From Candidatus Omnitrophota bacterium (GTDB lineage: Bacteria; Omnitrophota; Omnitrophia; Omnitrophales; Aquincolibacteriaceae), in NCBI GenBank assembly GCA_030698625.1, contig JAUYMS010000007.1, positions 1 to 60,165 of the forward strand: DNA of 60,165 nt. Reading direction: 5' to 3'. Position 1 is the stretch's first letter. Each line of letters opens with the position of its first letter. Below are positions 1-34,748 of this stretch, one piece after another. The translations under genes and the position numbers were made by a program. The notes beneath the pieces were generated by a model. The model was not told the origin of the DNA and did no database searches. It saw nothing but the letters and a program-made list of their open reading frames with translations.

Positions 1-3000
1 CCATCCGCTTTTGTTCCCTTTCACTTACCCGATCGAACTTTTCAATTTCCCTGTTCACATAGATATGCCGGCCGTCGGCCAGCCCAGCAAAAATCCCTTT
101 CGAGTCCAACTCAACCATCCACAGCGATTCCAGCCAGGGCACCGCGTACCCTTCATCCCGCGGCAACACGCTTGCCAGATTTGAAATCACATTTATTTGA
201 TCATCTGTGAACGACTTCCCAAACTCGGCAATCAGGATTCTGTTTTTGACAAAGATCGATTTTCGCTCGCCCTGCAGTCCGATGGCGTCGGCAAAACTGC
301 TCAGTGCGGCTTCGTCATTTACCATGGTCAGCAGCGATGTGATTCTGAAGGCATTCACGCTCGGCTGAATCTCTGCCCGCAACTGATCTCGAGAAGCAAA
401 CTCTGCATCTATTTTGTCCCAACCGGCACTCAGGAATCGGGCCGCATAGGCAACAGCCGCCTGTTCAAACCGTGGCTGGATGGCGTGAAAGGCAGCCGCA
501 CCTTCATTGCCTGGAACGTATTTGAAAATGTATTCGATAAACTCACGGTTTTGATCTGCCGCGGACTTATTCGATTGGGCGATGGCCGCTTGAAAATCGG
601 CCAATGAAATTTCGAGCAAAGCCGGCAGCGGAAAATCGCCGCGAACGCCGTCTGCAATCAATCTCCTAACGATACCGAGAGCCTCACCTCTTTCGCCGGC
701 CTTTAATCCCTTAATTGCCTCCACAAAGCTGTCCAAATAGACCTTTTTTTGCTTTTCGTTGATTGCGGGATTACGCAGTAGATCACTGACCAAATTCAAA
801 TTCCTAAAACCCCGCAATTGAAACCTCGCTTTTTGCAGAATTGCCCCAAAGATGTCCGACAACAGCACAGGCAAACCCGCATTACCTTGCCCGGCATCGC
901 TCCTTAGCTCGGAGCGGGCCTTAAGACCTTTGAGAGTTGTGATGGGTCTCACCTGCAAGATATAGATCTCGCCGTCCTTGATGGCGAACTCAATATCGAC
1001 CTCATAACCGAATTCGTCGCGGATGCCTCTGCCAATCTCGCTCAAGCGCTCAGTCTGAGCACGCGTTAAGACCCGTCGACCTCTCAAACTTAACGGCGTG
1101 CTCACCTCCGTTGTGCCGGACCCGCTCGGGTCCCGGACCGTACGGACCCGCTTACGGCCTAACACCTGTTTGCTTCCGTCAACGGGATCAATTTCGTGGC
1201 CAAACTCAGCCGATGTGACGTACTGATCGGCTTCGACCAAGCCGCTGACCAATGCCTCGCCCTGACCATAGGTTGCATTGATGACAAAGCGACTCGTATC
1301 ATTCGTGACCTTGTCCGCCGTAAAGAGGGTTCCCGAAATATCCGAATCAATCATTTCCTGAATCACGACCGCCTGCGGCGCTATGCCTTCCCCCGCGGGC
1401 AGCACGGCCTCGCGATAAACCCTCGCCCGGTTTGTGGCAAATGAAGCGAAGACCTCGGCAACGGCACTCGTCAAGTCTTTGGTAGGCACGAATAATTTCG
1501 TGGCACCGGCACCGGCAAAAGAGGCGGCTTTAGAATCTTCGCTCACATTCGAGGAGCGAACCGCCCACCACGCAACTCTCGGCCGGAAGCCGCGGGCCAA
1601 TGCCGCAATCTTCCGCCCCAACGCGGCTGCCGCGGCCACAGAACCCAAAAAGAGGTCGCGAATCGCGCTTTCGTCTGCCTGTCCAACCAACTCAGAAAGT
1701 TTTTCACGAATTCCGGAATTGCTGACAAATTGTTCGAACCCTGCCGTTGTGACGACAAACCCGCGCGCTACTTTAAAACCCAGTCTCGCGGCTAGAGACT
1801 CTAAAAACCCTAGATTCGCACCTTTCCCGCCCCCCGAGAGCACATCCTGCGCGCCAAGTTCGCCGAGAGGCAGCACCGCCTCGGGCCGAGCCTCGGCAAG
1901 CGAAACCGGTTGAGTGACTTCGGCGGCCGGCAAACTCACAGCGGCAGTTTCTACGCGGGCTGAGGCGCTTCGCGCGAGTGCCCCCGCCTCCGTCTCTACA
2001 CGCACAACACCGTTCGTCCCGTCCACTTCGATCTTTGAGTCGATACGGATATCGGTCTCCCGGCGTGTCAGCGTGCGTGCAACCCAGAAAGCCCCCTCAG
2101 TCTGCCCTTCGCCGGCCTCATAGCTAGTGACGCGCCACACTTTCTCTCCGCCTTCCTCGATCAATTCGGCATTTGGCAACCCCACATAGGGGATCCCAAA
2201 TTCGGAGGCAACAACCGCGGCATGCGCGGTAGAACTTGCACCCGGTGTCACAATCGCCGAGTACGTGATCAAAGCCGGCACATCATCCGGCTGCGTTGAT
2301 TGGGTAAAGAGGATCTGCCCTTCTTGCTCTGCTTCCTTTTTTGCAAACGACAGAGGCCCGCTAACACGTCCCGCTGAAACGGCGACACCCTTGAGGACGA
2401 CTACGCCCGCCTCGACTTCAATTGCGGGTGCGCGAGTCAGCCTGCCGAGACTGCTTTTGACCGTCTCCGCCGTGATGCTATCTTCAAGTTCATTCGGTTG
2501 AAAGCCGCGAGCCTCGGCCTCATTACGAATCTGTTGCGGACTCCAAGCCTGCGAGAACTCTCCTTCCGGGCCGCGTTCGACCACGCGGGCGAACTTTGCG
2601 ACATTGGTGTCAGGATCCCTGAGAACCGTCACTAAAAGCGGTGTCCCTTTTGTGCTTTCCAAGGTTCCGACCTGAACCACTAAATCTCCGATCATGGCCA
2701 CAGCTTCGTACTCGATCAACGGATCAAGCGCAACGACCGTATCCGCGGCAAGCATCACCGACTCACCGTGCCCGGATTCAAAATCACCGAGTATGTCGTC
2801 AATCGGCTGATAATTGGGGTTCACAACCAGGTTTCCCCGGCCATCCCAGATAAGTGATCCGAGCGCCAATCTTCTATCAATGGGTACATTTATGTACCGA
2901 TCTGCATCTCTCTGGGTAAGCTCGACAAACGGCAGGCCTAGGATATTGAGTTGTTCGAGTCCCTCGATCGGTTCAAGTCCGAGAGAGACAAGACGCGCGT

Positions 3001-6000
3001 TAATGCTTGCCAATGCGCCGAGACCCACGACATGTCGGGATCCGAAGCTGCTCGCAGCGTCAAAGACCGACAGCCCCCCCGCCTCAAGATAGACCTGGGC
3101 TGCTTCAATGCCATGCTCCTCATTCTTGACCACAAAGTCATAATCGCTTACGGAGTAAAGTACGCGGATCACTTCCCTCAGCGTCTTCTCGATATCCACA
3201 GCACTCTTCGCATAGTGGTCCTTATCCAACACGACATTCAGAATCCCTGTACCCTCATCGATATGAAGTCCCAGGCTCTGAAACACTGCCGTCAAGAATG
3301 CAATGCGTCCGGGACTTCCCACGACATTCTCCTTGTAACGCACTGAAATGATCCCGCCTTCTTCCGGCGGGGCCAGTTTGGCGTGAATTTCGGCGCGATG
3401 CTCACCGAGTTCCAGGGTGCCGAAAAGGGTATCGTCGCTGACCACAAGATTAGATCGGATATCGTTCTCCTGCTCCTCTTGGATGGCCTCCATAATCAAC
3501 CGTAATAGGGGCGAGTTCACCTTGCCGTTTTGCACAATTGCGGACTGCGATAAGTCCGTGATGTTTAAACTCTTATTGGCAAGAGTCACTTTCAGATTCG
3601 CATTGGCTCTTTCGGCCAAAGAGTAGAACGGGAGGAATCCTTTTTGATGCAGGAAATTGATAAAGCTATGATAAGAGGAAACATTTTCCAATACCCTAGC
3701 CGCCGCACCCAAACCGGTAATCTTGGCTCTTATATCCTGAACGTCACTCCAATCCACGCGTCGCGCCTGCGCCTTAAGCTCAATCCATTTCGCTTGAATC
3801 CGAGCGGCCTCGGACTGCTTCTCACTGAGATTACGGGCAGCCTCTAAGTAGGCGTCCAACATTCTCTGCACTTGAGCGTCAAGGCTTGCCAATCCCGCCT
3901 CATGCAGATTGGGCAGTAATCTCAGAGCGGCAAAATTGGCATCAACAAGCGCCTCGTATAGCTTTAATTCGCCTTTCAATTTTTCTTGCTCACGATTATT
4001 GACCGTACTCGCTTGGGCAGCGAAATAGCGGCGCGCCGATAACCTGCGCACATTCATGCCCGCAGGATTCAACGCTGACACAATCGATCCGTCAGGCACG
4101 AGCCCGAGGGGGATAGTTCCCGACTGCCTGTCAATCTGCACTCGCTCTTGATGTGTCGGGTTAACGACGAAGGACCCCAGAGCCGCCGCTTTAGTAAGCG
4201 ATCCCGCAAAGGCGTCGTATTCCTCATACCCCACGGCGTCACGCAACGTCCTGAGTTCACCGAGAAACTCTTTTGCAGCCCTTCGCGTAACAAACGGGGT
4301 CTCCTGCCAGGAGCCGAATCGCCCGCCCACGGACATATTCTCTAAACGCGGCAACAACTCCCGTGCCTCCGCTGCGAAACGGGCACCGTAGAGCCGTGTC
4401 AAGACATACTCAAGGTTCTGCACCGCCAAACCGGAGAATGAAGTATTCTGCAGCTTGAGATAGGTCGCCATTTGAGAAACCAATGCGTTTCCGCTCCCGG
4501 TTCTCTCGGCATTGCGGATAAAGCTCTGATACAGATGCTTCTCGACATCAATCTTCTGATCATAAAACCCGACGGTCCGCTGCGCGAGCCAATTCCAGCT
4601 TGCTCGTGCCGCCAGGCCATAGACGATTGCTCCTGCCCATCTCAATAATCTCACCGCAAGGCGTGAATCCTCCGCAAGAGTCAACCTCGCATGATTCGTT
4701 GCCTTGGCCTTATTGGAATTCCCTCGAGACTCTGCTAAGTTATAGCCATTCCCCCGGCCCAACCCGCCCCTTCTCAGCTCCGCGGGCATTTGTGCCTCGT
4801 CTGCGAATATCCGGCCCAAGAGCCCCAGGCGGACTTCCCCGGCTTTTCCCGCGCTTATTTTCTGCACCCGTGTGACCTCATTGTCACCATCCAAATAGGC
4901 CTGCAGTGAGGGAACGCCTGATGGCAGATTATTCGGGTTCTCCGCGAAGTAGTTAGTCGCAGCTTCGCGAAACAGCGCCTCAGTGCTTTCTCCTGTCCAT
5001 TGATCCTTCGGAATGAGGATGATCCACCCTGCGATCAAGCGTGCGAGCTCAATATCGGCAAGCGTCAGCTTAAAGGGATCATTTGGGTCTACGCGTCTTC
5101 CCCTTTCGATCTTTCGCAGAAGTGTGCGGTAAACGTCCTTCACAGGGCCATCATCCTGTCTCTGCTCGGCAAGACTTCGCACTTCGTCGACAACAGCGTC
5201 CGGAATCGGCCGCCAATCATCCGCTCGTAATTCGGATCGATCCTTATCCTCCTCGCTGACTTGACTCCGCGCGACCGTTTCGAGACGCGCCAACCTGTCA
5301 CCTAAATCTTCTCGCACCTCCGAATTCGGCTCCTCCGTCTCGGCAAATGCCGGAGGCGTCAGGACCACCGGCCTTCCCACGAGCGCGGCCACCGCCTCGG
5401 CCACCTTATCTGCAGCAGCTCCGTCTGAAGCGATAAAATGCAGCTGCTTCAGGTTATCCCGCTCATCGATTAACTCTGAATACTGCAAGGTGGGGATCAA
5501 GAGCAATACTTCGTTAACTCCAAAAAGCGGCGCAAGATGCGTCGGCCCCGACTGTTCATTCAGAAGGACTCCCCCGGTTTCACTCACGATGCGCAAAAGG
5601 GCAGCAATGCGAAGCACATCATTATGACCGACGGCTTGCACGTCGGCACCGTCTATCGAAGCAATTTCGTCATGGAATTTCGCCAAGACTGCGGAGGCGC
5701 GTTTCTCCTTCCAGCTTTCGGGCCCTTCGTTGAATACGATCTTCACATCGGATTCAGCCGCAATTTTTCTGAGAGCTTCAAGCCACACCCTTTCACGCCA
5801 GGGCTCTACAAATACCCCACCAGTCCCCTTAAGCATATTGACAAACAGCAGTGGTTTGACTTTGCCGTCGGGAAATAGCTCGGCCTTGAGCGAGGCAACG
5901 GACTCGTTCAGGGCGTCGCTGGAGGCCTCAGGCGTAAGATGGATAGGCGTGTTTGGATCAGCAACCGGTTCAAACCCTAAATGCTCAAGAAGGCTAAGCT

Positions 6001-9000: not shown

Positions 9001-12000
9001 GATTGGCATATTTGTCTGTGTCCGATCCGCCGATATCGATGTCATTCTCCGCGGCAAGAGCCGCGAACTGCGAATCATCGTCTTCGGCTCCGTGCCCGCT
9101 GTCACCTTGTCTGAGGATCGCTTCACGAAAATTGCCGTAGCCTTCGTCATCAAGCCCGAGGTTCTTCTTTAAAACCGCTTTAAATTTCTCATCGAGTATT
9201 CGAACGGCAAAGAAGGCCTGATCCTTGTAGGTGTCACGATCATTGACGTCAAGGTCCTCATGGGCATATCCGATGTTGGAGAACAAGACAGCCGCCGATA
9301 CTATTCTCCGAACCCGCAGAGCGTTTTCGTTCTGGCTTCCCAGCGGTATCTTGAAGAGTTCCAGAATCGCTTTAACTTGTGTCTCGTCCTCGAGTAATCC
9401 ATTCGCATAGGCCGCAACCCTCGCGATATGCTTCAGGTCGGGAGCCAAAAGGGGTATTTTATGCGCGTTCGATTGCTGCTTTTCGAGAAAAGTGCTAAGC
9501 AAAAACTTGGCATCCGCCGAAAAGTTCAGCCCATCCACCAAACTCCTGATTATGGGAATGCTGTCAACAGTCGTCATGCGCAACTCTGAGCGAGACTTTG
9601 CAAAATCAGGGACGGTGCCGAATAGGGATTCCAAGTTTCCAAAAATTTTGCCCTCATCAGGCCCGAGTTCTTCACCCGTTTCGCGAAGCAGGGACTGCCA
9701 AGGAGGCTCAAGACCAAGCTCGACCAGTTTTTCCCATTCGTCCATTTCTTCCAAAAAGAGCTGCAGGTTTTCCTTTCTTACGCGGACGCCGCGAAGAGTC
9801 GGGAAGGTTGTTTTGGGCAAGGTGGCGCGGACATCGGCCTCAGGGTCTTTCTTTTGGTCGCCTTCAAACTTGCTCATCTTAAAAATCTGTTCAAAGCGCT
9901 GGCGCAACCGCGTTTGCTTGAGCCATGCGATCTTTTGATCAGCGCTTTTTGACGCCCAGTCAGCAGGAAATTCTGAAGCATAGTGAATCCCGCCGCCTAC
10001 CGGGATATATCTGGCCTCACCCGTTTCATAAAACTTTTTCGCAGCGAGCGTAAGCAAGACATGCGGCTTGCCGTTAACCTGCACGACATAGCGGCCCAAT
10101 GCCGCTGCAGAGATACGAATATCGGCATCGTCGGCTTCGGCCGCAAGCTTCTCTTTGCCGCGGCTCTCAATCCGGCCCGCCAGGAAGGGAACATTGTCAC
10201 CGCCGACCGGGCCGTTCCACTCAAAGCTTTGATAGTCTTCTCTTTCCAGACGGTCCCCAAATTCAATGACGGAATCATCGTCTGCAGGCACTAGTATGAT
10301 CCGCGGCGGGGCCCGTCCTTGCCTTTCGAAATACCAATCTTTTAGGTCCTTTTGAATCTGACCCAATTCTTCCCGTAGGCGCAGCCTTTCACTTTCCCCG
10401 GCTGTCTTTAAATTCTCTTTGATGGCGGCGATTCTGGAACGCACTTTCCCAAGCTCTGCCCAAGCCTTCTCCGGAGATCCATAGGCGTTGCCGAAGGCGG
10501 ACCATTCAGCCTCGTTTTGCGCAGTGATTCGGGAAGACTGTTCCTCGCCGAATCGCCCTTCGAAGAGGAAAAACAGCTTGGCCGACAGGACATCCCTCGA
10601 ACCTACAGCCGCCGTTTGTGAAACAGCAAAGTAGCGTTTCAATCCGATTTCTTTAAGCGCTACACCTTCCGTATGCCGGACGAATTCTTTACTTGCGGCA
10701 CCGTCCGTCCGCAACTCGGAGCGGGCGGCAAGACGCTCTCGCGGAGTGTTCGCATCAAGGGACGACAGCACGGTTCGTAAAACTGCCGCATAGGCTCTTG
10801 GATTTCTCCGCGCCAGTTCACCTGCTGCCGCAAATGTTTTCTCCTCATCTAGGCCTCGAGTAGTTCCCGGCCTTGCGGTTTCGAGGCCCTTCCGTGTTGC
10901 CGCAATGAGCTCGGATGAAATTGCCCTCACGAGGAAGGGATTTCGCCCGAGTTCCTGTTGCCATTCCGCAAGGCGCGAGTGCTCGGATATACGATTGCGG
11001 TTGGCTTCCTTAAGTTCCGCTTGTAACGCCCGAATCACGCGCTGTTCTGCCATAATTGAGGCCGTCTCTAAGGGCAGTTCCGTTCGGGCTGCATCGATAT
11101 TCTGCACGAGCACTTCGGTTGTTTTGCCATCGCGGTAGAGCTCTGTTGCCAACTCTCGAAAGCCCACGGCTGCGTACTCGCTTACCTCCTTGGCATCGGC
11201 AGCTGCCAGTGCCTCACCCCAAGCCGCAATCGCCGCCCAGCGTGCGCCTTTATCCGGCTTCCATCGCGCAGAGCGCGTATCGATGATTCGGCGCTTCTCC
11301 TGCGGCACAAGTTTAAAATAAATCGCTTCGATAGCCCGGGCATGCCACAGGCCGTATTTGCCGTCAGTCGAATCGTCGACGGGGCTGTCAATAACGGTAT
11401 TGATGTATTCTGCGAGCGAGCCGTGAGGGATCTTACTGGCGGCAATTTCGCCAAGTACCGACAACGCCTCCTCTGCCGGAACCACCTCGCGGTCAAGGGC
11501 CGCCATAAATGCGTGAACCAACTCATTGAGAACCGTTGATTCCTCTATCCCCCGGCCGATAATGTTGCGGTCTACCTTTGGAAACGACTTCTGGAGCAAC
11601 GCAAGCTGGGAACGCCCGATTCTCCCTAACACATCCTTATGGTCCCGCCAGTCCTGATCGGAGAGATCCTCAGTATGAGAAAATTTGTCCTCATCTTTCG
11701 CGTCAAGTGCGTCGTAAATTCGCCCGCCCACAAATTGCGACAGGGACCTATTCACGATACCGATGGGATACTTGCCGGCTTGAAAACCCAAGAAGGCCTT
11801 CAGGCGGACCTTTTCTTTCTTCAGTGCGGCTTGTGGCGCCTCCGCCTCTTTATCCTCAACAATCGGTCCTCGGCCGTCGACACCGATCAAGACCCTCGCC
11901 TTGTGGCCTTCCGCCGTCACGATGCGATAGTCCGATTCCGTCTCTGTGCGGAAGAATATGGGAATCAATTCTGTCTCTTGCTCCTTATTATCCTTAACGC

Positions 12001-22084: not shown

Positions 22085-22108
22085 ATTTGAGATACCGTGC
22101 AAGAAGGA

Positions 22109-22321: not shown

Positions 22322-22379
22322 GCTTGACCTCCGATTCAATAATTATCGGTCAGCCACAGGCAAAACTTGAACCATCGCC

Positions 22380-23120: not shown

Positions 23121-23129
23121 AGGAGCGGC

Positions 23130-23138
23130 ATTATACCA
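23130..23138 (-). promoter_or_regulatory. Extended -10 promoter, probably leaderless
   Basis: TGGTATAAT (minus strand) is a perfect extended -10 element. Only GCCGCTCCT separates it from the ATG at 23120, so transcription would start at or next to the start codon. No Shine-Dalgarno sequence is present, consistent with a leaderless mRNA. Confidence 0.55.
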
Positions 23139-23147
23139 TGCGATGAA

Positions 23148-26100
23148 TTATGCGGCTGCTGAGAAAGCCTCTCTGGCGGCTTCGGCGATTTCGATGATGC
23201 GGCTGATAGATTCCGCCGTGACTTGATAGATGCCCGATTCGTTCTCGTTAACGGCCAATTCCCGGAGATAATCAATGCGTTTCTCCGGAGCCACTGAGGC
23301 AATGGCCCGAAAAACAGCCGACACCTGCCTGTAGTTCTTGATGAGCTCTGCGCGGATCTCCGCAGGAAGAATCCCCGGCCGAGCTTCCCGAACAAGGGTC
23401 TTGCCTTGAATCAACAATGTAAAAAAGAGATCGGGATTCCCGCCGCGTGAAACGAGTGCCGCTTCCAGGTCGTCGTAGTACACTGGCCGCTCGACATCCG
23501 CAGAATTGTAGGTTGTCCCCGTAAAGATAAGGTCGTTGACGAAGCGTACCGGCACGAGCCGCTGCAAACGGCTCTTCCGCAGACCTATGTCAGCATCATT
23601 TGCATCATAAGCCCCCACGACAGCATTATCTCCCGTAAACAGAAAATCGATGAGCGCTTCGGCATCTGAAGTTGCGTCTGGGAGATCCGCGAGATGGAGG
23701 CCCTGAGAGACTCCTCCCTCCAGCCGTCTGGTTTTCTGAGTCTTGCGGCGCTTCTCAATTTCAGCCAGAAAGGCTTCGGGGTGCCGGATAATAAACTGCG
23801 CCAATTCTGGGGAAATAACCGAAACGTCCGAAGCAAAGGCGGGCGTACTCAATAGCACGTCCGGTTGCTGGATCAGTTCTTCGGTCAACCGCGCCGCAAC
23901 GGCGCGAATCACGGTTATGAGCTCCGCACGGTCCGGCGCAGAACTGAGGAGATTCTTCAGCGCAGACAATCCCGTACCGGGCAAAGCTTCACCGCGTAAA
24001 ACCCCCGGCAGCAACAGCCTCAGAATCCCCTCGACAGTCCCCTCGATGACAACGCCTTCGACAGATCGGAGCTCCGAGCGCTCTATTTCAGGCTCGTTAA
24101 GTCCGTCAAAGAAATTCTCAAATGTCCCGACAGCCGATTGCAATAGCGGCGTCCGCTCCGACGGCTCAAGGCTATCAAACCAACGGCGTAATGCCAGCAT
24201 GACCCGGAACAAGGGGATCTCGTATTCCGTTCCGAGATCCGCATCCTCAAGGATAAAACTTGTAGTCGGCTCCACGCTTCTCGATTGTGCGATAGGACGA
24301 TTTTCTGCGTAGATGTCCGCGGTAATTTCTTCTGAGGCACCGGGTTCCACGATAATAGCGTAGCGGACATCTTCGGCTTCATCCGGATCCTCGTGGTGAG
24401 GAAAGATAATGTGAAGTCGATTGACTGCATCAGACACCTCAAAACGAAGGGTCACTTCACGCCCTTCCTTCGTACCGAGGGTAATCGTATCAGTCCCGGG
24501 CTCGCGGATTTGATGCGCTTCACGAAGGATGTCTTGAACGGCCGGGAGGCGCCAATCTTTATCGTGCTCGCCGGTGAGCTTATCAACGGCCTGAATCACA
24601 CTCTCGATCTGCTGCAGGCCCTCCGCCTCCAGATTCTGCAGTGAGGTTCTTTCGACGTCAATGATACTCAGCGGGCCCCCGCCAACCGGCCGAATTCCAG
24701 TCATATCATAGACCGTCGTTTCGCCGCTATCCAAGTTCATGGCGATCTGTCGCATGAGCACGCCGTCGATTTCCCCTTTACTGGAAATGGACTTTTCAGG
24801 AAAAACAATTCTCGCGAAATCACTTCCGGAATCTGGATCCCGCTCCAAGACCAGTTGAACCTGAGTGACAGGACTCAACAGATAAGTCACATCCCGCAAC
24901 TTCTCCTCGACGATCTTCAGCGGAACTTCAAGGACAGCGATCTTCCCCACTTGCCGTCCACTATCATCGAGCACACTTTCGAGTACGGGGCGGCTTCCGA
25001 TGCTGCTGTTTTCGATGAGCTCGAAACCCCTTCCATTCAGTCCTAACAGCGCCGCGCGGATCGCATCGGTCCATTCCGCCGGAATCGCTTCATCGGACGC
25101 TGTGTCTGCTACAGTAAGTCGAATTATCCTCTGCTCAAGATCGACACTCCAAGCCACATGAACGGGCTGCGTGAGGTCCATGCGATTGCCGTGCACGACG
25201 GCGTTCTTGACCAGTTCAACAACCGCCAAATGAAAATCACTTTCTCTCAATGAATTTTCCGGCACAAAAGCCCGAATGCGCGTTGCGAGAAAGAGGCCAA
25301 AAGTGCTGATAGCCCGCACCAGTTCTTCCAGGGAATCCTGATTCACGCCCTCGCGCACATGCGAGTCTAAACCCCGCAACGTCACCATGCCGGATACCGT
25401 ATTGTTCCAACCATAGTCAATCTGCGGCCGCGTCGCCTCTGATAAGTCGGCCGCGGCCGTCTCCCCGACTCCGACATCTTCCATGACAAGAGCCATAAGT
25501 GCCGTTTCGCGCGTCAGCACGGGAAAGAGCGCCCTGAATTCTTCGACACCGGTCGCGAGCCCCTTCTGAATCACCTGCTCACGCGCCTTAAAGTTCCGCC
25601 CCAATTCCAGATAACGGTGGTAAATGAGTAATTCGCCGTTGACCGGATCGGCCGTTGCCCTTTCATAAAATTCAGGGTCATGCTTCTTGAAGAATTGATA
25701 GATCAACGGTCGTGACACCCCTGCATGGGCCCCTCGCAATTGCCGCTGGAGATCACCTAACTTCCGGCTGATCGTCTGCCAGCGCGCCTCGTCGCGAATG
25801 GCATAGGGATTCTCCGTCTGGGGTCGATCGGCAATCAACTCAGGCTGTTCAAAGAATCCGATCAAGAGCTCGGGACGTGTTGTGTCTTCGGTAAAAGCGG
25901 GAACAAGCTCTATTCCCTCCGCCCGTAGATTGGATCGCTCCTCATTAACGAGACCGACGAACCAACTGTCAATTTTCTTCCGTACTTGCTTAACCCGGTC
26001 GCCGTCAATCTTACCGTCCTTTAAAACCGGTTTGTTTCCGAGCCCCAGCAATACCCCGTCGGGCGGGGTTGAAAAAACATAGGGCGGATAAAGGTCTGCC

Positions 26101-29100
26101 GTCCTTGCTGTGAGCACCGCTCGCACATACTTACGCATCTGCTCTTCCCAGGACTTGACCAACGGGCCGATGCCGCGGTTTCCGGTTATGCTCTTAAACT
26201 CCGCGAGTAACGTTTTGTCCGTAAAAAGGTCGCGGATGAGTGCGTCCGGGACACTGCCGGAAACCTCTTCGGAGCGGGTTTTAATCGAAAGAGTCTCAAC
26301 ATCAAAGCGTTTATCCCCGTCTTGCCGTTGGCGATCAAGAACAGACGCAAAGTACAAGCCCCACAAAAGACCTTTGTCTTTTTTGATATTAGAAGCGCTC
26401 AGCGTATCGTCAAGGCCGATTGTCGCCTTAAACTCTTCTATACTCGCGATCAACCTGCCGTCGCTATTCGGTGAGAAATAGAGTTCGATCAAGTTCAGAA
26501 GCAGCCGCGGCGAGCGGAACGAAAAGGCGAACGGCGACTTTTCGAATTGGTTCAGCAGAAAGTCTTGAATGAGCGAGCTCTCACTTTCAGTCAGCCCGAG
26601 CTCCTTGACGATGCGCTCAAACCAAGGATAGATGTCATGCCGCTCAAAGCTGGCCGAGCGTAATTCGGAGCGATTGCCGATACCGAGTAGGTCTTTTGCC
26701 CCGACGCGGAACTCCCAGATCCCGCCCTGGGGCGACTCCGGCTCATAGGTACTTCGTTCCAAGACACCCGTATGAATCTTGCCTGAAAAATGGCTAAGGC
26801 CTCTAAGCTGACGTCTAAACAGCTCCTCTAGGTCTAAACCGCGACCCGCGCCGCCGATCCGGAATATGCCTTGAACGCGTTTCTCACGTTTTTGCTCGCT
26901 TGATTCCGCGATTGTCGGACCGATTCCGTTGTCAACAACATGAATCACCACATCCGCTTCACCATCGGGAGGCTGTTCGGTAAATACGTGAACGTCCACC
27001 ACCAAATTCTCAGCGAAGACGGCATGTGCGCTATCGCCGAAGTCTTCACGCGTGCGCACGTCATAAAGTTGCAAATAAGAATCAATCGCATTCTCAAGAA
27101 TCTCGGGCAGCAGCAGCTTGAACAGTTTCTTGAGATTGATTTCATCTAGACGCGTGTCCTTTTCCGTGCCGGTAGCCCCCACAGCGGCAGTCAATAGCCC
27201 TCGCGCGACACTTTCGACATGACGTGCCATATCATAATCTTGCGCCAGACGCTCCTCGATTTCCTGGCGTAAGGCTTTGTTGCGAATACCTGGTTCCTTA
27301 AGAAGGGCTCTCAACTGCTCCGCTGAGAATACCAGATGAACAACCTTATCTTCGTCGGAGTGATGACTTTTGGATCGGAGCTCCGAGCGGTCGGCGGCCA
27401 CGTTTACCACTAACGCCTCGGGGACATCCCCGGGATAATCGGTCTCATAAATCATACCGCCCGAAGGCGGGTATTCCACCGGCCGGTAGCCCAGGAATAA
27501 AACAGAGTGCTCATTATCACGGGGCTTACGCACCTCGAGCATATCGGGCAGGGTCGTCACACCGCTATAGTCGTCAAAATCGCTATCACTCGTCGACAAA
27601 ATCTTGTAGCGGGCGCCGGATTCTACAAGCGCTATCGGGTATCCCTGTCCTTCCGCCGTGTTGATGAGGTCTGAGAGTTGCATGGATTCGGGTGCCTGCC
27701 CTTGAACACGACGGACAGGATAGGAGGCATCGCCAAAATTGACTCGAGTCGTACCTCCCGGTGCCGCAACCCGGTATATTTCCTCAATCCCTCGTAGCGG
27801 ATCACCGACATAACGCATCGATTCTACCGACATGATATAGTGGAAGCGGTTAGTCCAAGCCTCGGGCAGATCCTCGACCGACACCGGTTCCTTACGAATG
27901 ACTCCGGCCTGCACAAGCTCGTCGTTTATCAGGCTCCCCAACAAAACACCGTCACCCGATCTTTTATCCGTGTAGAACGGACGGTCCACGATGTCCACAT
28001 TGGCAAAGGAATATCGCCCCTTAAGGTGTTCCGCTAATTGCCGTGCCAGGTTCTGCTCTTCGGCATGATCACCGTCCGCACGGTAAGCCCACGACGCGCC
28101 GATGAGCGGCTTCGTCACATCGGGGATTTCAGCCAAGCCGATCGTCAGCGCAAGGCCGAAGAGGCCATAGCCGCGTCCTCCGCCGATGTCCAATACCTCG
28201 TAGGGTTCGCCCTCCGCCAGGGCGCCGCTGTCAATCAGGCGCGTACGCGCTGCCATAACTTGCTCATAAAGACTCCGGCCTATGCTCAATTCCCCTTCAT
28301 AGGTCTGATCCGCATGATCCTCAAACAGCGCGTGAAAGTTGAAGGGCAACAGCCCCGTTTTCTCCAATAGCTCCCGCGGGGGTCTCACCGTACGGTAAGT
28401 AATATTGCTCTGAGCCCAACCGCTTGTGGAATAGCTCTCCTGCCGCGCCTTTTGTAATGCGCTCCTCGCGGCATCCTCTTTTCTTTTCGCGTAAATGTCC
28501 TGTAAACGACGGTCTTCCTCCGGCGATGTCCGCAATTCGGATCGTTTAGGCACCCTTATCTCAAGTACCAAACCACGACCGACTCCCTCTTCACGCACGG
28601 CATGAGCGACTTCTTCGGACCCCACCACGATGCGCGTGTGCCCGTCCCGGACCGCAAGGTCTATAATCTCAGAAGCAGGCAGTTCGTCACCTTCGCTCAC
28701 ATCCAGTTCAGAACCCAGCGCCACGAACATCTGCCGCACTTTTTCGACTAAATTCATATTCCATTCACCGATCCCCTCCGGGTTCGCAAGGGTGTCAGCA
28801 ATCGCCGTTTCCTCAGCTCGAAAGAATTCGTGAACATTTGCACTTTCCGGCAATTTGCTATGCTGTAAGATGAAATTGGCTCGATCTACTTTGCGATAAT
28901 TTAGCGACGGGCGGAATGACTTGTCTCCATCTTCCCAAGCTTCAGCCGGAACCTCGACAAAAACCTGGTCAGCCCAGGGTGGCCGTTCATCGGCAGGCAA
29001 ATCCTGCAATCCAAAACCATGCTGCCGGACGAATCCGCGGTAAGGGAAGATGAGCGGCAATTCTCCGGCATGCTTGCGCATCCGCAACTGGTCCGGCATC

Positions 29101-32100
29101 CTTCCGTAAGTGCCGTCATCATCTTCGGAAAATGAATACCCGTTGGCCCCTGTCGCCCACGGCCTTCGCCCAACACCGCTGTAAACGCTGCCCCCGGACT
29201 TCATATTGAGATCATGACCCCGCGCAATAAGCGCTTCTCGGAGGTGCACATCAACGGCGAACGTCCGTCCATCCGCTTCGCGGTCAAGACTAAATTCAAA
29301 ACCGGGCCCAAAATCGACTTCGGTCTCACCTCCGACAGCCAAGACGCGATGCATTTCCTCGATCACCCTAAGATTATCCCCCGCATATCGCAGGGCTTGC
29401 GCCGACGTCACATAGTGCATGGTATTCGACCAGGCGTTAGGCAGGTTCTGCGCCGGCGCCACTTGAATATCGATAACTTTTTCGTTTCGGAAAGCTTGAT
29501 TTAGGACTTGGCTCAAACGATCTGCCGAACTGCCCCCATACCGGCTCGCCTGATCAAAATCACGTATTTCCAGATCGGCCCCATAGAACCTGTACCTCTC
29601 GCCGAGCGTTCGGGCCAGGAGAATAAGGTCTTGGTCATCGGATTGCAGTTCATCACCTTTGCCCACAACCTTTGCCACAAGATCCGGAAACTCCTCCCTC
29701 GCAATCACAAACGCAAGAAGAAACAACGCGTAACCTCCACCCGAGCCAATGTCGAGTACGCCGAAAGGTTTATCCTGATCGAGCAGCTTCTGCGCCACAA
29801 GCTCCGTTCTTTTTCCCTGAATAATTTCGTATAAGGGCCGGTTGAGATGGATTTCATGCTCGTAGGTACCGTCCGTGCGCAAATCGAATGGAAGCCGCTT
29901 GTCCTCCGGAAGCCTGATGCCGCGCCTGTCACGGCGTGAATAACTCTCTCCTTCTCTGCGATCAATGTGGCTGCCTGTGCTTACCTCATGGTAGAGCCTT
30001 CGATCCGCATCCCGCTCTTTCTCAGCCAGATACCACTCTGAAGCAAGTGCCGCAAGCTCTTCCGTACGAAGCTCAGAACGGACAATGTCTTTGCCTTTGT
30101 CAGGTAAAAGATGCCGAATCGTGTTTATGCCTTCGTCGGGACGCTGTTCACGAAGAGGCAGGAATCTGAGTGTGCGCAAATTCACGTCCGCTATCTCTAC
30201 ACGCAGACCCCGGTCACGCAAAAAGCTGGCCATCGAAGCCAAAACTTCAGCATCAACTTGTCTCTCCAGAAAGGCCGCGGGGAATTCTATACCCCGCAGA
30301 TAGCTCAACATCTGCCACAACTCGACATGCCCCGCCATAACCGGTATGTCTGCAATGTCATTATCCGACACCCCGACATTCAGTTCTTCGAGACGGAGCC
30401 GTCCCGCGCGCTTTCTGAAGACAGCGAAGGACGTTGATTCTCCCCCGATCAGCCCGGAGCTTGCGACGAGCAGAATTTGTCCGTCACTCATACGGCGAGA
30501 AAAATTTTCCAAAACAGCTTCCTGGGAACCCTCGTAATAGATCAACACATTGCTGAGAATCGAAATGTCGGGAAATGACGGCAACCCGGCCGAATCGTCG
30601 AGACTGTCAAGCTCGAGGATACTCCCTTCCAAGAACGCAATCTTAGGCCGTGACTCCTGCTCATAGGGCGCGTAGGGCCGTGTATCCGCCCTGAGCGAGG
30701 TCCCGCGCGAGCGTGCGCGCGGGTCCCTGTAAATCTGCTCGCTGCCCCCTTCTTGCGCCGAAACAATCAGTCCGTCGCGCATCAACAATGTCGGGCCAAA
30801 GGGGTCACGCGCCACGGCATCAACGAGGTAAGGCTCTATTCCATACGCCACCGTCTCAACCCCGTAGCGCTCACTCCAGGCATCCTGCAACTCTAACGCC
30901 AGCCTGTGAAATGCATCCGGCGGATACCCGGGGCCAAAATCGCCGACAAGCAGCGAGGACCGCTCCGGTGAAGCTTCAGCCAGCCCCAGAAGGTCATCGC
31001 CATAGCGCCGCAGCCATTCTATGAGAAGTTCGTATCGATCGGGCTGCGTCATATATGCCGTCAACTGTCGTTCTTTCCACGCACTAAACTTATAGTAGCC
31101 GGATGCCCGCTCCAGAAAAACCAGTGCCAGCCTATCGAGCACAGCACCGTCCGTTTGTGGCGGGAAAGAATCAAAAAATCTAAGGAGCGTATCCACAATA
31201 TCGTTACCCGGAGTTTTGGACTTTAACTGACCTAGAACTTCATGCACCGACGAACCCGGTTCCTGCGGCACAGCCCGGCGGATTTCTTCAAGATCACGTT
31301 CCCTCTCTTCCAGAAGCCGCTTGATCTCTACGGCATTTCGCGTGACTTGGCTAAAGTCGGTAAGGCCTATCGAGCCTTCCGCGACACCAATAGTTTTCGG
31401 ACCCCTTACTATATATCGGGTAAAGATATCAATACCGCGATCTGCATCAAAAATACCGTCGAGTTTGCTCCAAAGAGCCGTTTGGTACTGCAGGGTCCTC
31501 AAAATTAAATCTTGCGCCACATGCTCTTCTCCGCGGTCAACGGCGAGTCGAATTCGTTCGAGTAGACTTTGCCCTTCAGGAATCAACTCCTGCGCAACCC
31601 AAACGGGCTGCTCGGCCGCAGTGAATTCCTCTTCGGCTGAAATCACAAGGGCCTGCGGATCCCGTTTACCGAGAATGCGCAGACGAAACGGCAGCAAATG
31701 GTTATTGCGCCTATAAAATCTTTCCGCTGCCAGATAACTCACAGCTAAGGCATCATCTTTAAGCAAGTGAAGAACCGTGCCATTGTTACGGCTTACCAAA
31801 ACTAGCTCCGCGTCGGAAGCTGACAACATCTCATAAGGCAGCGATTCAGCTATACGGACTGCCTCGGTAAGCGGAAGCTCCGGGTCAAACACCGAGCGCA
31901 ACTCCGAGCGCGCATATTCGTCCGCGGGGAAGTACCAGTTCGCGACCCCTCTGAGCTTTCCGGCGGCAATTTCGTAATCAATAAGGACCGTTTCAAACTC
32001 CCGGGCCAGCGCTTCGCGCCCGAACTCAAGGTTTTGTTCGGATGCCTCCTCAGCCTCTTCGGCAATGGCTGCGGAGCGCTCCTCAACAAAGGCCAGACTC

Positions 32101-34748
32101 GCCCGGATTTCCCGCAGCACCGTTACCACATGCCTGAGGTCCTCGATTTCCAACTCGTCGACATACTCCCACTCTTGAACAATGACTTCCGTCCAGCGAA
32201 GGAGCTCACGGAATTCTGCATCCGTCCGGCGGCGCGTCTGGCGACGCACCTCTTCATCAATAACTCCCTTATCATAGAGGCGCCTTCCGGCTCGTTCGAG
32301 ACGGTCGCGAATACCATACAGGCTAAACGGAGCAAAAGCGTTATCGATGGCACTCTCCCGCTCGAGCCGAATGGACATCATCCATTTCTGCCGTTCATTC
32401 TCACGCTCTCCAACGACGTCCCGTCCGCCTTCGACACCCGGCAGTAAGCGGCGACCTAAATCACGCAACTTTCGCCTAAAAGGTATCGGCCCCGGCTCTA
32501 TGGCCAACACCTGCTCAGTTTTTACGCCTTCCTCTGTAACAACCTCTTCTTCGGTGATTCGAATCACGAATTCTTCCGACTCGAGATCCGTCATCAGAAT
32601 ACGAAACGAGAGCTCGCCGGCACGTTCCGCCGTCGAAAACTCATTACCGTAAAGCCGCTCGAAGTAGCGGTCCGGGAGCCGGCCTCGCGTATCCAGCGCA
32701 TTAAACCGGGGGTGGAGCTCAACACGTTCGATTGTCTCCGCACGCTCAACCGCATCAAGAATGCTCTTTGCCAGTTCATTGCGCTTAACAATCCAGCGGC
32801 GCTCCTCCGATCCCCCGTCGGATTCCTCGCGCAATTCAGACCGCAGAATGACGATGTCCGCGGAAACGGGCTCTCCGGGAGTTAGGGGCTTAACGCTATA
32901 GAGCGTCGCCGACGTGGGACTCTGCGCGAGCGGCGGAACAAGTACGCCTTCAAGCCCGTTTAAAAATTGCTCCAGACGCGAGCGCCAGTTTGATTCGAGT
33001 GCGGTTTGCTCTTCAAGGCTCAGTTTTCCCCACGAATATTGGTCGAGATATCGAAGATAAAAACCCGCCTTTGCTAACGATCCGCTCGAGGCCAGAGACT
33101 TTATAATGTGATCACGCCACAGTTTTAGCGTCCAACCCCGCTGTTCTCCGCGCGAGCCGTCCAAAAGCTGCTTAGCGGTATTCCGGGCAAACGCATCAAA
33201 AAGATCGACTTTCCCGTCCTTAGCCACAAGATCTTCCTTCCAGGAGATATCGCCCAACATCACGCCTTCGTATAAACCCACATCCGGCAATTCCTGAATC
33301 ATCGGGGCGACAACCACATAGGAAATGCCATTGGCCTCGAAAAGGTCTCGCATCCGCTCGGTATGAAAACCTCCGGCAAGTAACATCGCTGACTCTTCAT
33401 CTTCTGAGATCATGAGATTACGAAGCTTTTGAAAGAAAGAAGCCTCGCGACGCACCGCCACATCATAAAAACGCAATGCGGCCGTAAAAGCAAATTGATC
33501 CGGACTGGCCTCTCCGCGATTTAGAAGAGCGTCAAAGCTCGCCGGAGCAAATTCCTCCGGCGCTTGCGTGAACTGTGCCCAATCGTCCGGAGTCCACTCG
33601 AGCCTCCTAAGACGCCCTAAAACCGCAAGCTTCCCGTCAAGCTCATCGACTTGAGCTGCTTCGCGATTCGGAATCAGACCGGCCTTAACTTCTTTTACGT
33701 ATTCATTAAATTCCCGGAAGAAATCTGCTCCCTGCATCTCGGCAAGCACGGGATGATTCTCCACAAGGGGCGTCAGCGCTTCGTAGGGGGCCATATTCAC
33801 TGCATGCTTCTTCGCGACATCCGATACGAAATGGGCATAGCCTCTCAGAGAAATTACGCCCGTTTTAAATGCCTGGTGCTGCTCATTCAGAACCATTTGC
33901 TCCGACCGGTCGGTGACCAGCAACCGCAGGGCGTGGTGGAGTCTCTGTACCAACTGTTCCGCCTGAACTGCGTCGGTAGCCGGAACGATTTCTGATTCAG
34001 AAAGCACCGCCGCAACTAGCGGGTAAGTCAACGGGCGCTTAATCCGAGCGAGTAACTGCAGGATCTCATCAAGCCGAATATCCTGCTGCCAAAAGCTGTT
34101 TAGATTTCGATCCAACTCGAGCAACGGCTCCGGGTAAATTCGCTCCTTGGCAGCTTTCAGTCGGTCTGCGAACAAGGCAAGTTCCGAAGTGAAAGCATCG
34201 GACTCTGTTTTTGCCCGGATATAAGCCCGAATGCCGTCTTCATACAAATCCTGTTTGTCGATGCCTTCGAAAACCATACTTTCCGAAGCCGTCACAGAAG
34301 CCGTCGCCGCCCCCGAGAGTTCCCCGCGCCGGAGGTGTTCGTCGAGGATGTTTCGCAGGCGGTCTTGCTCCGGAAAAGTGCGGTAGAGCAACGCGTCGAG
34401 TCTCCCGCTGCTTCCCTCCAGCCCGGCAAGCCTTACTCCGTACTCTCGGTTGAAGTAATGGATAATGTCTTCAATTGATTTTTGGGCCTCATAATTCGCA
34501 TGGGCGTCCTGAATCATGATCACGGTTTTGCCCGAATTCCCAAGGTAGGACGCCTGAATCGATCCAAGTTCAGCGGGCAGACGGATCGACTCCACCTCAA
34601 CCGAGGCAGCCGCCGATTCAGCTCCATAAGCCATCGGCACAAACCCCGCCGTAACACTGGAAAGAGTAAATAAAGCACTAAACAAAAAAGTAAATGCTCT
34701 TCCCGTGACGGAGGAATACCAATTTTTGGCATTCTTTCGCTTTAGCAT
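23148..34748 (-). CDS. Giant secreted multidomain (RSELR-linked) protein 2
   Basis: A complete 3,866-aa protein from the ATG at 34748 (GAGGTG six nucleotides upstream); an in-frame TTG at 34778 is possible but has poor spacing. Residues 1-43 form a signal peptide (basic n-region, FTFLFSALFTLSSVTAG, then AYGA). Residues 75-560 are the ChaN/TraB/Tiki-like domain shared with giant 1. RSELR occurs at residues 636, 947, 1557, 2069, 2454, 2693 and 3557. Between them lie a charged helical module, a kinase-like then CheR-like methyltransferase module (about 1000-1480), two paralogous class I methyltransferases (about 1600-1790, 2130-2330), a GHKL ATPase (about 2460-2690), an RsbW-like ATPase (about 3120-3270) and an unrecognised C-terminal module. 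Domains that use cofactors found only in the cytoplasm sit behind a signal peptide, which is odd. Possible readings are a degenerate scaffold, a processed polyprotein, or retention in a cytoplasmic or outer-vesicle compartment. Confidence 0.92.
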   Translation of the reverse strand: MLKRKNAKNWYSSVTGRAFTFLFSALFTLSSVTAGFVPMAYGAESAAASVEVESIRLPAELGSIQASYLGNSGKTVIMIQDAHANYEAQKSIEDIIHYFNREYGVRLAGLEGSSGRLDALLYRTFPEQDRLRNILDEHLRRGELSGAATASVTASESMVFEGIDKQDLYEDGIRAYIRAKTESDAFTSELALFADRLKAAKERIYPEPLLELDRNLNSFWQQDIRLDEILQLLARIKRPLTYPLVAAVLSESEIVPATDAVQAEQLVQRLHHALRLLVTDRSEQMVLNEQHQAFKTGVISLRGYAHFVSDVAKKHAVNMAPYEALTPLVENHPVLAEMQGADFFREFNEYVKEVKAGLIPNREAAQVDELDGKLAVLGRLRRLEWTPDDWAQFTQAPEEFAPASFDALLNRGEASPDQFAFTAALRFYDVAVRREASFFQKLRNLMISEDEESAMLLAGGFHTERMRDLFEANGISYVVVAPMIQELPDVGLYEGVMLGDISWKEDLVAKDGKVDLFDAFARNTAKQLLDGSRGEQRGWTLKLWRDHIIKSLASSGSLAKAGFYLRYLDQYSWGKLSLEEQTALESNWRSRLEQFLNGLEGVLVPPLAQSPTSATLYSVKPLTPGEPVSADIVILRSELREESDGGSEERRWIVKRNELAKSILDAVERAETIERVELHPRFNALDTRGRLPDRYFERLYGNEFSTAERAGELSFRILMTDLESEEFVIRITEEEVVTEEGVKTEQVLAIEPGPIPFRRKLRDLGRRLLPGVEGGRDVVGERENERQKWMMSIRLERESAIDNAFAPFSLYGIRDRLERAGRRLYDKGVIDEEVRRQTRRRTDAEFRELLRWTEVIVQEWEYVDELEIEDLRHVVTVLREIRASLAFVEERSAAIAEEAEEASEQNLEFGREALAREFETVLIDYEIAAGKLRGVANWYFPADEYARSELRSVFDPELPLTEAVRIAESLPYEMLSASDAELVLVSRNNGTVLHLLKDDALAVSYLAAERFYRRNNHLLPFRLRILGKRDPQALVISAEEEFTAAEQPVWVAQELIPEGQSLLERIRLAVDRGEEHVAQDLILRTLQYQTALWSKLDGIFDADRGIDIFTRYIVRGPKTIGVAEGSIGLTDFSQVTRNAVEIKRLLEERERDLEEIRRAVPQEPGSSVHEVLGQLKSKTPGNDIVDTLLRFFDSFPPQTDGAVLDRLALVFLERASGYYKFSAWKERQLTAYMTQPDRYELLIEWLRRYGDDLLGLAEASPERSSLLVGDFGPGYPPDAFHRLALELQDAWSERYGVETVAYGIEPYLVDAVARDPFGPTLLMRDGLIVSAQEGGSEQIYRDPRARSRGTSLRADTRPYAPYEQESRPKIAFLEGSILELDSLDDSAGLPSFPDISILSNVLIYYEGSQEAVLENFSRRMSDGQILLVASSGLIGGESTSFAVFRKRAGRLRLEELNVGVSDNDIADIPVMAGHVELWQMLSYLRGIEFPAAFLERQVDAEVLASMASFLRDRGLRVEIADVNLRTLRFLPLREQRPDEGINTIRHLLPDKGKDIVRSELRTEELAALASEWYLAEKERDADRRLYHEVSTGSHIDRREGESYSRRDRRGIRLPEDKRLPFDLRTDGTYEHEIHLNRPLYEIIQGKRTELVAQKLLDQDKPFGVLDIGSGGGYALFLLAFVIAREEFPDLVAKVVGKGDELQSDDQDLILLARTLGERYRFYGADLEIRDFDQASRYGGSSADRLSQVLNQAFRNEKVIDIQVAPAQNLPNAWSNTMHYVTSAQALRYAGDNLRVIEEMHRVLAVGGETEVDFGPGFEFSLDREADGRTFAVDVHLREALIARGHDLNMKSGGSVYSGVGRRPWATGANGYSFSEDDDGTYGRMPDQLRMRKHAGELPLIFPYRGFVRQHGFGLQDLPADERPPWADQVFVEVPAEAWEDGDKSFRPSLNYRKVDRANFILQHSKLPESANVHEFFRAEETAIADTLANPEGIGEWNMNLVEKVRQMFVALGSELDVSEGDELPASEIIDLAVRDGHTRIVVGSEEVAHAVREEGVGRGLVLEIRVPKRSELRTSPEEDRRLQDIYAKRKEDAARSALQKARQESYSTSGWAQSNITYRTVRPPRELLEKTGLLPFNFHALFEDHADQTYEGELSIGRSLYEQVMAARTRLIDSGALAEGEPYEVLDIGGGRGYGLFGLALTIGLAEIPDVTKPLIGASWAYRADGDHAEEQNLARQLAEHLKGRYSFANVDIVDRPFYTDKRSGDGVLLGSLINDELVQAGVIRKEPVSVEDLPEAWTNRFHYIMSVESMRYVGDPLRGIEEIYRVAAPGGTTRVNFGDASYPVRRVQGQAPESMQLSDLINTAEGQGYPIALVESGARYKILSTSDSDFDDYSGVTTLPDMLEVRKPRDNEHSVLFLGYRPVEYPPSGGMIYETDYPGDVPEALVVNVAADRSELRSKSHHSDEDKVVHLVFSAEQLRALLKEPGIRNKALRQEIEERLAQDYDMARHVESVARGLLTAAVGATGTEKDTRLDEINLKKLFKLLLPEILENAIDSYLQLYDVRTREDFGDSAHAVFAENLVVDVHVFTEQPPDGEADVVIHVVDNGIGPTIAESSEQKREKRVQGIFRIGGAGRGLDLEELFRRQLRGLSHFSGKIHTGVLERSTYEPESPQGGIWEFRVGAKDLLGIGNRSELRSASFERHDIYPWFERIVKELGLTESESSLIQDFLLNQFEKSPFAFSFRSPRLLLNLIELYFSPNSDGRLIASIEEFKATIGLDDTLSASNIKKDKGLLWGLYFASVLDRQRQDGDKRFDVETLSIKTRSEEVSGSVPDALIRDLFTDKTLLAEFKSITGNRGIGPLVKSWEEQMRKYVRAVLTARTADLYPPYVFSTPPDGVLLGLGNKPVLKDGKIDGDRVKQVRKKIDSWFVGLVNEERSNLRAEGIELVPAFTEDTTRPELLIGFFEQPELIADRPQTENPYAIRDEARWQTISRKLGDLQRQLRGAHAGVSRPLIYQFFKKHDPEFYERATADPVNGELLIYHRYLELGRNFKAREQVIQKGLATGVEEFRALFPVLTRETALMALVMEDVGVGETAAADLSEATRPQIDYGWNNTVSGMVTLRGLDSHVREGVNQDSLEELVRAISTFGLFLATRIRAFVPENSLRESDFHLAVVELVKNAVVHGNRMDLTQPVHVAWSVDLEQRIIRLTVADTASDEAIPAEWTDAIRAALLGLNGRGFELIENSSIGSRPVLESVLDDSGRQVGKIAVLEVPLKIVEEKLRDVTYLLSPVTQVQLVLERDPDSGSDFARIVFPEKSISSKGEIDGVLMRQIAMNLDSGETTVYDMTGIRPVGGGPLSIIDVERTSLQNLEAEGLQQIESVIQAVDKLTGEHDKDWRLPAVQDILREAHQIREPGTDTITLGTKEGREVTLRFEVSDAVNRLHIIFPHHEDPDEAEDVRYAIIVEPGASEEITADIYAENRPIAQSRSVEPTTSFILEDADLGTEYEIPLFRVMLALRRWFDSLEPSERTPLLQSAVGTFENFFDGLNEPEIERSELRSVEGVVIEGTVEGILRLLLPGVLRGEALPGTGLSALKNLLSSAPDRAELITVIRAVAARLTEELIQQPDVLLSTPAFASDVSVISPELAQFIIRHPEAFLAEIEKRRKTQKTRRLEGGVSQGLHLADLPDATSDAEALIDFLFTGDNAVVGAYDANDADIGLRKSRLQRLVPVRFVNDLIFTGTTYNSADVERPVYYDDLEAALVSRGGNPDLFFTLLIQGKTLVREARPGILPAEIRAELIKNYRQVSAVFRAIASVAPEKRIDYLRELAVNENESGIYQVTAESISRIIEIAEAAREAFSAAA
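24066..24080 (-). repeat. RSELR linker motif (giant 2, residue 3557)
   Basis: Encodes RSELR (CGC TCG GAG CTC CGA), preceding the C-terminal module of about 300 residues. Confidence 0.85.
24950..25420 (-). other. RsbW-like ATPase module in giant 2
   Basis: FHLAVVELVKNAVVHGNRMD is the N box of anti-sigma-factor kinases, LTVADTASDEAIP the G1 equivalent and NGRGFELIENS the G2 equivalent. The G1 glycine is replaced (DTASD), so ATP binding may be altered. Confidence 0.6.
26658..26672 (-). repeat. RSELR linker motif (giant 2, residue 2693)
   Basis: Encodes RSELR (CGC TCC GAA TTA CGC), right after the GHKL ATPase module. Confidence 0.85.
26700..27350 (-). other. GHKL ATPase-like module in giant 2
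   Basis: The N box is LLPEILENAIDSY, the G1 box VVIHVVDNGIGP and the G2-like segment GGAGRGLDLEELF, in the right order for the histidine-kinase/Hsp90/MutL ATPase fold. No dimerisation or phospho-acceptor His domain is seen. Confidence 0.65.
27375..27389 (-). repeat. RSELR linker motif (giant 2, residue 2454)
   Basis: Encodes RSELR (CGC TCG GAG CTC CGA), preceding the GHKL ATPase module. The DNA here is part of the palindrome CGCTCGGAGCTCCGA. Confidence 0.85.
27690..28330 (-). other. Class I SAM methyltransferase-like module B in giant 2
   Basis: Motif I is EVLDIGGGRGYGLFGLAL near 28190, followed by FHYIMSVESMRYVGDPLRGIEE and APGGTTRVNFGD. This module and module A are an internal duplication separated by an RSELR. 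Confidence 0.65.
28530..28544 (-). repeat. RSELR linker motif (giant 2, residue 2069)
   Basis: Encodes RSELR (CGA TCC GAA TTG CGG), between the two duplicated methyltransferase modules. Confidence 0.85.
29290..29840 (-). other. Class I SAM methyltransferase-like module A in giant 2
   Basis: Motif I is FGVLDIGSGGGYALF near 29755, and the later segment HYVTSAQALRYAGDNLRVIEEMHRVL with GGETEVDFG is the usual post-motif region. It is a close paralogue of the next module, sharing the YxxSxxxxRYxGDxLRxIEE pattern. Confidence 0.65.
30066..30080 (-). repeat. RSELR linker motif (giant 2, residue 1557)
   Basis: Encodes RSELR (CGT TCT GAG CTT CGT), between the CheR-like and first class I methyltransferase modules. 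Confidence 0.85.
30330..30960 (-). other. CheR-like methyltransferase module in giant 2
   Basis: LLVGDFGPGYPPDAF occupies the motif I position. FLEGSILELDSL and ISILSNVLIYYEGSQEAVL resemble the CheR pattern (xCRNVLIYF followed by an amphipathic helix), and DGQILLVASSG matches the strand after it. The SAM-binding glycine loop is weaker than in real CheR, so activity is doubtful. Confidence 0.45.
31896..31910 (-). repeat. RSELR linker motif (giant 2, residue 947)
   Basis: Encodes RSELR (CGC TCG GAG TTG CGC), between a charged helical module and a kinase-like segment. Confidence 0.85.
32829..32843 (-). repeat. RSELR linker motif (giant 2, residue 636)
   Basis: Encodes RSELR (CGG TCT GAA TTG CGC) at the end of the N-terminal module. 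Confidence 0.85.
33070..34520 (-). other. ChaN/TraB/Tiki-like N-terminal domain of giant 2
   Basis: Landmarks are VIMIQDAHANYEAQKSI, GVRLAGLEGSSGRLD, RRGELSGA, MLLAGGFHTERM and GWTLKLWRDHII, in the same order and spacing as in giant 1. Homology between the two is clear by eye; the superfamily name is tentative. Confidence 0.6.

Follow-up and report, generated by a model that had tools for sequence, protein, structure and literature searches.

RSELR between the enzymes of giant Omnitrophota proteins: a candidate cleavage site

Why would a single pentapeptide recur between unrelated enzymes of one protein? Bacteria normally keep enzymes apart by encoding them in separate genes. The window considered here is a stretch of 60,165 nucleotides, the entire contig C2 of a Candidatus Omnitrophota genome (3.52 Mb, 50 contigs). 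It holds two giant proteins in which RSELR stands repeatedly between modules. The original prediction offered three readings of this peptide: a processing site of a polyprotein, a docking peptide for a shared partner, or a relic of repeated gene fusion. We weigh these readings, and two others, against the sequence of the whole genome and its relatives.

The motif in the window and in the genome

A recount in frame gives 15 copies, eight in giant 1 and seven in giant 2, as originally predicted. All are on the minus strand. Giant 1 (2-18502) starts at the ATG at 18502 with a signal peptide and a leader, continues as RSELR-delimited cargo and is truncated by the contig end. It has no cysteine at all. 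The core of its leader (17102-18268) runs from IQDAH (18268-18254) to GGFH (17113-17102). Its RSELR copies follow at 15869-15883, 15215-15229, 14114-14128, 12500-12514, 10709-10723, 9578-9592, 5225-5239 and 902-916, the higher number being the first base of each. The fourth is immediately followed by MDDDSRLTRRDFLKVVSLGA, a Tat-type signal, and the residue after the sixth is Met. A cargo module with PEP-utilisers and PPDK_N domains (917-5239) fills the space before the eighth copy, and its PPDK_N domain ends 4 residues ahead of it. Giant 2 (23148-34748) is complete, from the ATG at 34748 through a signal peptide and a leader (core 33363-34514, again IQDAH to GGFH) to a tail that ends in AAA. 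Its copies are at 32829-32843, 31896-31910, 30066-30080, 28530-28544, 27375-27389, 26658-26672 and 24066-24080. A methyltransferase module begins at the third and another at the fourth, homologous to the preceding one from residue 1. A HATPase_c_2 module begins at the sixth, and the C-terminal tail, with 305 residues after the motif, at the seventh. The spacing was predicted to be irregular (roughly 220 to 1,450 residues) and is 218-1451 aa. Just two further RSELR occur elsewhere in the window in any frame, both on the plus strand.

The giants have long neighbours. TPR-repeat proteins of 878, 784, 663 and 848 aa adjoin them at 35235-46450 on the minus strand, and a 278-aa TPR-repeat protein lies in the same cluster on the plus strand (38779-39615). 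A third long ORF (46520-60163, minus, at least 4,547 aa) runs off the contig. It is built from dozens of near-identical copies of a unit of about 66 aa (..AIRVIYAEDTDSDGSLDYQIVVDYGQSPPESTYIELNDFESATFPQYVKPA..), has no RSELR and 8 cysteines, and its C-terminus is PKP, not Ala.

The RSELR system is far larger than these two proteins, as the genome encodes 38 giants. Their coding length of about 758 kb is, by simple arithmetic, roughly a fifth of the genome. The set comprises RSELR-carrying ORFs of at least 1,500 aa, drawn from stretches around motif clusters together with leader-headed ORFs, and it was found mostly by leaders. It contains 316 copies of RSELR in 252,587 aa where 0.71 would be expected, and a single chain has up to 18. 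The original prediction had proposed such a count against chance, and chance is excluded. For the first 12 giants the count is 99 observed versus 0.19 expected. The same five residues permuted otherwise average 0.36 copies in these giants and one-substitution variants are at chance level, so all five residues of RSELR are fixed. At the DNA level the pattern R-S(TCN)-E-L-R has 334 matches genome-wide and the reversed pattern 26; about a dozen of the matches fall outside the stretches searched for giants. Elsewhere in the genome, the region C7:1-5800 is open in each of the six frames for about 1,700 aa over its first 5 kb and is probably masked sequence.

The motif was said to lie always between modules. 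In 38 alignments of paralogous cargo an RSELR falls within a homologous block only where the partner has a site too, and to this extent the claim stands. However, some junctions carry no motif: an epimerase, a ROK kinase and a DHQ synthase are joined within one segment. An SDR module of 294 aa illustrates how closely the sites fit. It starts one residue past RSELR and ends about 10 ahead of the next, and its homologues across the phylum are stand-alone ORFs of about 300 aa. Its AF2 model places the first RSELR in a lower-confidence helix ahead of the fold and the second in a segment with pLDDT below 50. Across the giants the 12-residue flanks of RSELR are disorder-prone (z = 11.4), with a preference for G/S and A/P before the motif and for A/S/T and then D/E after it. 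Twelve of the spacings in the 38 giants are short, at 11-54 aa.

Conservation at the level of protein and not DNA had also been claimed, and it holds, since the sites draw on every one of the six Leu codons and on all four TCN Ser codons. Paralogues within this genome served to measure selection. Alignments cover 79 sites, with flank identity of about 24%, and the partner has an exact RSELR at 50 of them. These 50 pairs differ at a mean of 5.0 of 15 nucleotides, necessarily all synonymous. Such synonymous-only differences, together with near-miss peptides at chance, argue for strong purifying selection on the peptide. Many of the 29 partners that lack an exact RSELR are alignment ends and several have RAELR. 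One can imagine a scenario where RSELR is a mere mark of flexible linkers that provide solubility or spacing and have no specific partner. The charged, disorder-prone surroundings would suit it. Such linkers vary, however, and here five residues are fixed while their single-substitution neighbours stay at chance; we consider this scenario very improbable.

Leader, cargo and C-termini

Of the 38 giants, 36 have an intact 5' end, and each of these is headed by a homologous leader of about 420-550 aa; contig ends truncate the remaining two. The leader opens with a hydrophobic N-terminal segment that has a signal-peptidase-like end. Across 31 leaders the invariants are AH (mostly QDAH), EG, Y, R and GGFH. 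The Tiki/TraB/ChaN superfamily is defined by a pair of GX2H motifs with a conserved Glu and Arg. The leader resembles this superfamily, which also includes the erythromycin esterases, in its two spaced xDAH/GGFH motifs and its invariant Glu and Arg. It differs in that its first motif is mostly QDAH, not GX2H, and in its large helical middle. Pfam matches are weak (PF04187 at a best E of 0.0017, DUF5694 at 0.007) and the best E is reached in 4 of 31 members. The AF2 model is confident (pLDDT 88), and neither Foldseek with this model (E <= 0.001) nor a profile search found a match in the PDB. The leader's sequence signature is Tiki/ChaN-like, and it may be a member of this superfamily.

The cargo reads as a set of complete enzymes. 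Those recognized by eye are kinase-like proteins, methyltransferases, HAD hydrolases, GNAT, alpha/beta hydrolases and SDR; others are transaldolase, epimerase, ROK kinase, DHQ synthase, glycosyltransferase, acyltransferase and PPDK_N modules. The catalytic motifs of the SDR, HAD, hydrolase, ROK and DHQ-synthase modules are apparently intact, again by eye, and Pfam gives few significant matches per giant. The giants are polyproteins in the sense that one ORF encodes several complete proteins. Seven modules open with a Tat-like signal directly past RSELR, and some have a start Met there.

Cysteine is almost absent from the cargo, with 31 residues in 226,967 aa (0.014%) as against 1.1% in the remaining ORFs from these stretches. 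Motif-free giants elsewhere in the order are likewise very poor in cysteine, so its loss is a trait of the giants and not of RSELR. Together with the signal peptide this loss points to export of the whole chain.

The C-termini are just as peculiar. Complete giants end in Ala in 33 of 35 cases and in Ala-Ala in 23 of 35, compared with 15 and 2 of 162 other ORFs. Both exceptions stop no more than about 130 bases away from a contig end. Most ends are Ala-Ala or Ser-Ala, and the same is seen in the giants of named relatives. An Ala C-terminus resembles C-terminal degron or tail-protease signals, and the system may have in it a second conserved signal. The tails do not form one common family but split into several small ones. 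The shared leader, the purge of cysteine, the Ala C-terminus and the genome-specific variants of the motif described below are additions to what had been read from the window.

Origin and function of the motif

The Ser codons of RSELR suggest how the sites arose. There are 306 TCN and 10 AGY codons, where codon use predicts 126 AGY. No single synonymous step links TCN and AGY codons, so most sites were probably copied from a common ancestral TCN site; the bias could alternatively reflect selection on the DNA in favour of TCN. The bias is repeated in leader-selected loci of named relatives (280 TCN, 20 AGY). It must be noted that most stretches from the relatives G050 and G034 were chosen with a TCN-only pattern and their TCN excess is biased by this choice, while the leader-selected loci are free of it. 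The Tat signals right past RSELR also look as if whole genes had been joined there.

It could be argued that this history is all there is, and that RSELR is a relic of a single linker DNA, copied by recombination or cargo insertion as the giants grew and without present function. The codon bias of common descent fits this, in this genome and in its relatives, and so does an almost complete turnover of cargo between genera (cargo is nearly unshared with G050 or G034, with 6 cargo matches). A relic would decay, however. Partners without the motif do exist among the 79 sites, but alignment ends and RAELR account for many of them as noted above. Exact paralogous sites differ only synonymously while their flanks have diverged, which contradicts a relic as the sole account, and near-miss peptides remain at chance. 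We regard a functionless RSELR as quite improbable. The fusion reading survives as an account of origin, in line with the stand-alone enzymes, the Tat signals or Met past RSELR and the Ser-codon bias.

The strict invariance of RSELR, its position at boundaries and its tuning in each lineage require a specific factor that recognizes it. We argue, with confidence only a little beyond an even call, that RSELR serves as a recognition site, most probably for proteolytic cleavage, at which very large exported polyproteins are split into individual enzymes. The giant would be made as a single chain with a Sec-type signal, the leader, a series of complete cytosol-type enzymes and an Ala-Ala or Ser-Ala tail. 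The chain would be exported, and this would account for its lack of cysteine. Acting at RSELR, a dedicated factor would release the cargo. We infer export of the whole chain, its cleavage and a workplace for the cargo in the periplasm, at the cell surface or in a prey cell.

Cleavage accounts for the coincidence of the motif with enzyme ends, for the small residue after it and for Tat signals at what would be new N-termini. Tat signals work only at a free N-terminus, and the seven right past RSELR count in favour of cleavage for this reason, although they could be inherited relics. The genome-specific fourth and second residues count in its favour too, as they are expected if the motif follows the factor that recognizes it. 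Against cleavage are the enzyme junctions without a motif, the relative of the SDR module in G082, which is part of a long ORF and has no motif where it begins, and the leader-headed giants of several families in the order, which have no motif. Cytosol-type enzymes also need cofactors that are normally absent outside the cytoplasm, which counts against exported cargo.

RSELR could instead be a docking peptide. A shared partner, whether a secretion chaperone, a scaffold or a cell-surface receptor, would bind many copies along an uncut giant, much as cohesins bind dockerins and adaptors bind short linear motifs. This explains the strict invariance and the motif-free junctions as well as cleavage does. 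It also agrees with exposure in disorder-prone flanks, many copies per chain at irregular spacing, closely spaced double sites and genome-specific tuning. What docking alone leaves unexplained is the close match between the motif and the ends of enzymes, and internal Tat signals at new N-termini are better suited to release. We place it below processing and think it unlikely, but a serious contender.

The modules could in principle be separated without any protease, if RSELR were a co-translational signal for 2A-like skipping or stalling by which one ORF yields separate chains. The internal start Met and Tat signals past some sites would fit. The consensus of 2A-like peptides is DxExNPGP, and RSELR does not resemble it; the flanks are G/S, A/P and A/S/T, D/E. 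Cargo made after a skip would also remain in the cytoplasm and have no need to lose cysteine. We give this idea hardly any credence.

If RSELR is cleaved there should be a protease that tracks it. A processing site fits best of the three readings offered originally, but none of the four families C11, C14, S1 and S8 follows the motif. C11 (PF03415) is absent from every genome examined. C14 (PF00656) is represented by two lipoprotein-like metacaspases in this genome only, with none in the 15 relatives tested. Trypsin-type S1 (PF00089) has a mixed occurrence that does not match the presence of the motif. S8 (PF00082) occurs in 4 of the 8 motif-rich genomes and in 1 of the 8 motif-poor ones, which is inconsistent with the motif. 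The lack of a tracking family among these four counts against cleavage. The two C14 proteins (L253, C41:6058-6735, and L254, C34:18075-18752) have lipobox-like signal peptides and intact His/Cys motifs, and could be candidates for an exported protease of the Arg-specific type. The leader cannot be called the RSELR protease because its matches to known families are weak, with no significant PDB or Foldseek match, and because leaders also head giants without the motif.

Relatives and known systems

The leader is an Omnitrophota domain as far as named loci with a short leader (subfamily A2) are concerned, since 69 of 69 belong to Candidatus Omnitrophota. It is present in 104 of 193 genomes of the phylum sample and heads ORFs of up to 35,113 aa. 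That longest frame (G048:C37:183570-185141) includes long runs of X, so its length may include masked sequence. Another leader (G028:C88:88691-90277) heads an open frame of 23,964 aa.

RSELR itself is more restricted. A count in related genomes had been proposed as well, and it finds RSELR enriched mainly in this genome's order; some relatives have no motif. Within the order the form in relatives is R-[SA]-E-x-R, where the fourth residue can be V, M, L, A, T or I in a mixture specific to each genome. G012 has RAEVR and RSEAR, G062 has RSEAR, G034 has RSELR with RAELR, and G050 has RSELR with RSEQR and RAELR. The leader-headed giants of G042, G097, G088 and more distant families have none. With several families lacking it, the motif either joined an older giant-protein architecture at a later stage or has been lost repeatedly. 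The G082 locus (L245, C13) mentioned above has SDR and kinase-like modules that are neighbours in this genome's giant and apparently neighbours there too, in reverse order. It is a long ORF with no motif at the SDR start, and it reads as module shuffling.

Dozens of chains of up to 14,000 residues, with unrelated complete enzymes, one shared delimiter and cysteine almost absent in 227,000 residues, call for an explanation. If RSELR is a cleavage site they imply a cellular polyprotein economy with a very specific and evolvable protease. More tentatively, and with odds below even, we suggest a bacterial polyprotein system in which exported, cysteine-purged chains are cut at an invariant pentapeptide by a lineage-tuned protease, with cytosol-type enzymes active outside the cell, possibly in prey or a host. 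At the very least, an in silico cut at each R-[SA]-E-x-R turns the giants into proteins of ordinary size. Annotation, folding and testing become feasible, which gives a handle on the unexplained giants of the Omnitrophota.

We know of no description of an RSELR-type delimiter in giant multi-enzyme bacterial proteins. A literature search for RSELR, with most subscription journals outside its scope, returned only papers on alginate lyase. Giant Omnitrophota ORFs are already known (Seymour et al. 2023, PMC10066038), and PMC12419801 makes note of gigantic multi-enzyme proteins in the phylum. The proteins described here, up to 14,273 aa, belong with them by the criterion of an ORF above 20 kb in an Omnitrophota genome. 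The likeness lies in the phylum, in ORFs of tens of kb and in many enzyme domains per chain. By contrast, the searched text of the two papers mentions neither polyprotein processing nor a peptide that delimits modules, and neither a leader common to the giants nor a loss of cysteine; the accessible text of PMC10066038 has no match for polyprotein or RSEL and that of PMC12419801 none for polyprotein.

Other systems offer parallels for the peptide. Dockerin, LPXTG and PEP-CTERM are, like RSELR, short conserved peptides read by a factor acting in trans. The sortase signal LPXTG and PEP-CTERM are single C-terminal signals followed by a transmembrane segment and a basic tail. RSELR is not an anchor of this kind, since it has up to 18 internal copies per chain and the C-terminus of the chain is Ala in place of a basic tail. 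Viral and other polyproteins differ from the present case, which is bacterial, has dozens of paralogues per genome and several motif-free junctions, and is known from sequence alone. What they share with it is a single ORF, complete proteins in series and a short conserved motif at the junction with a small residue after it.
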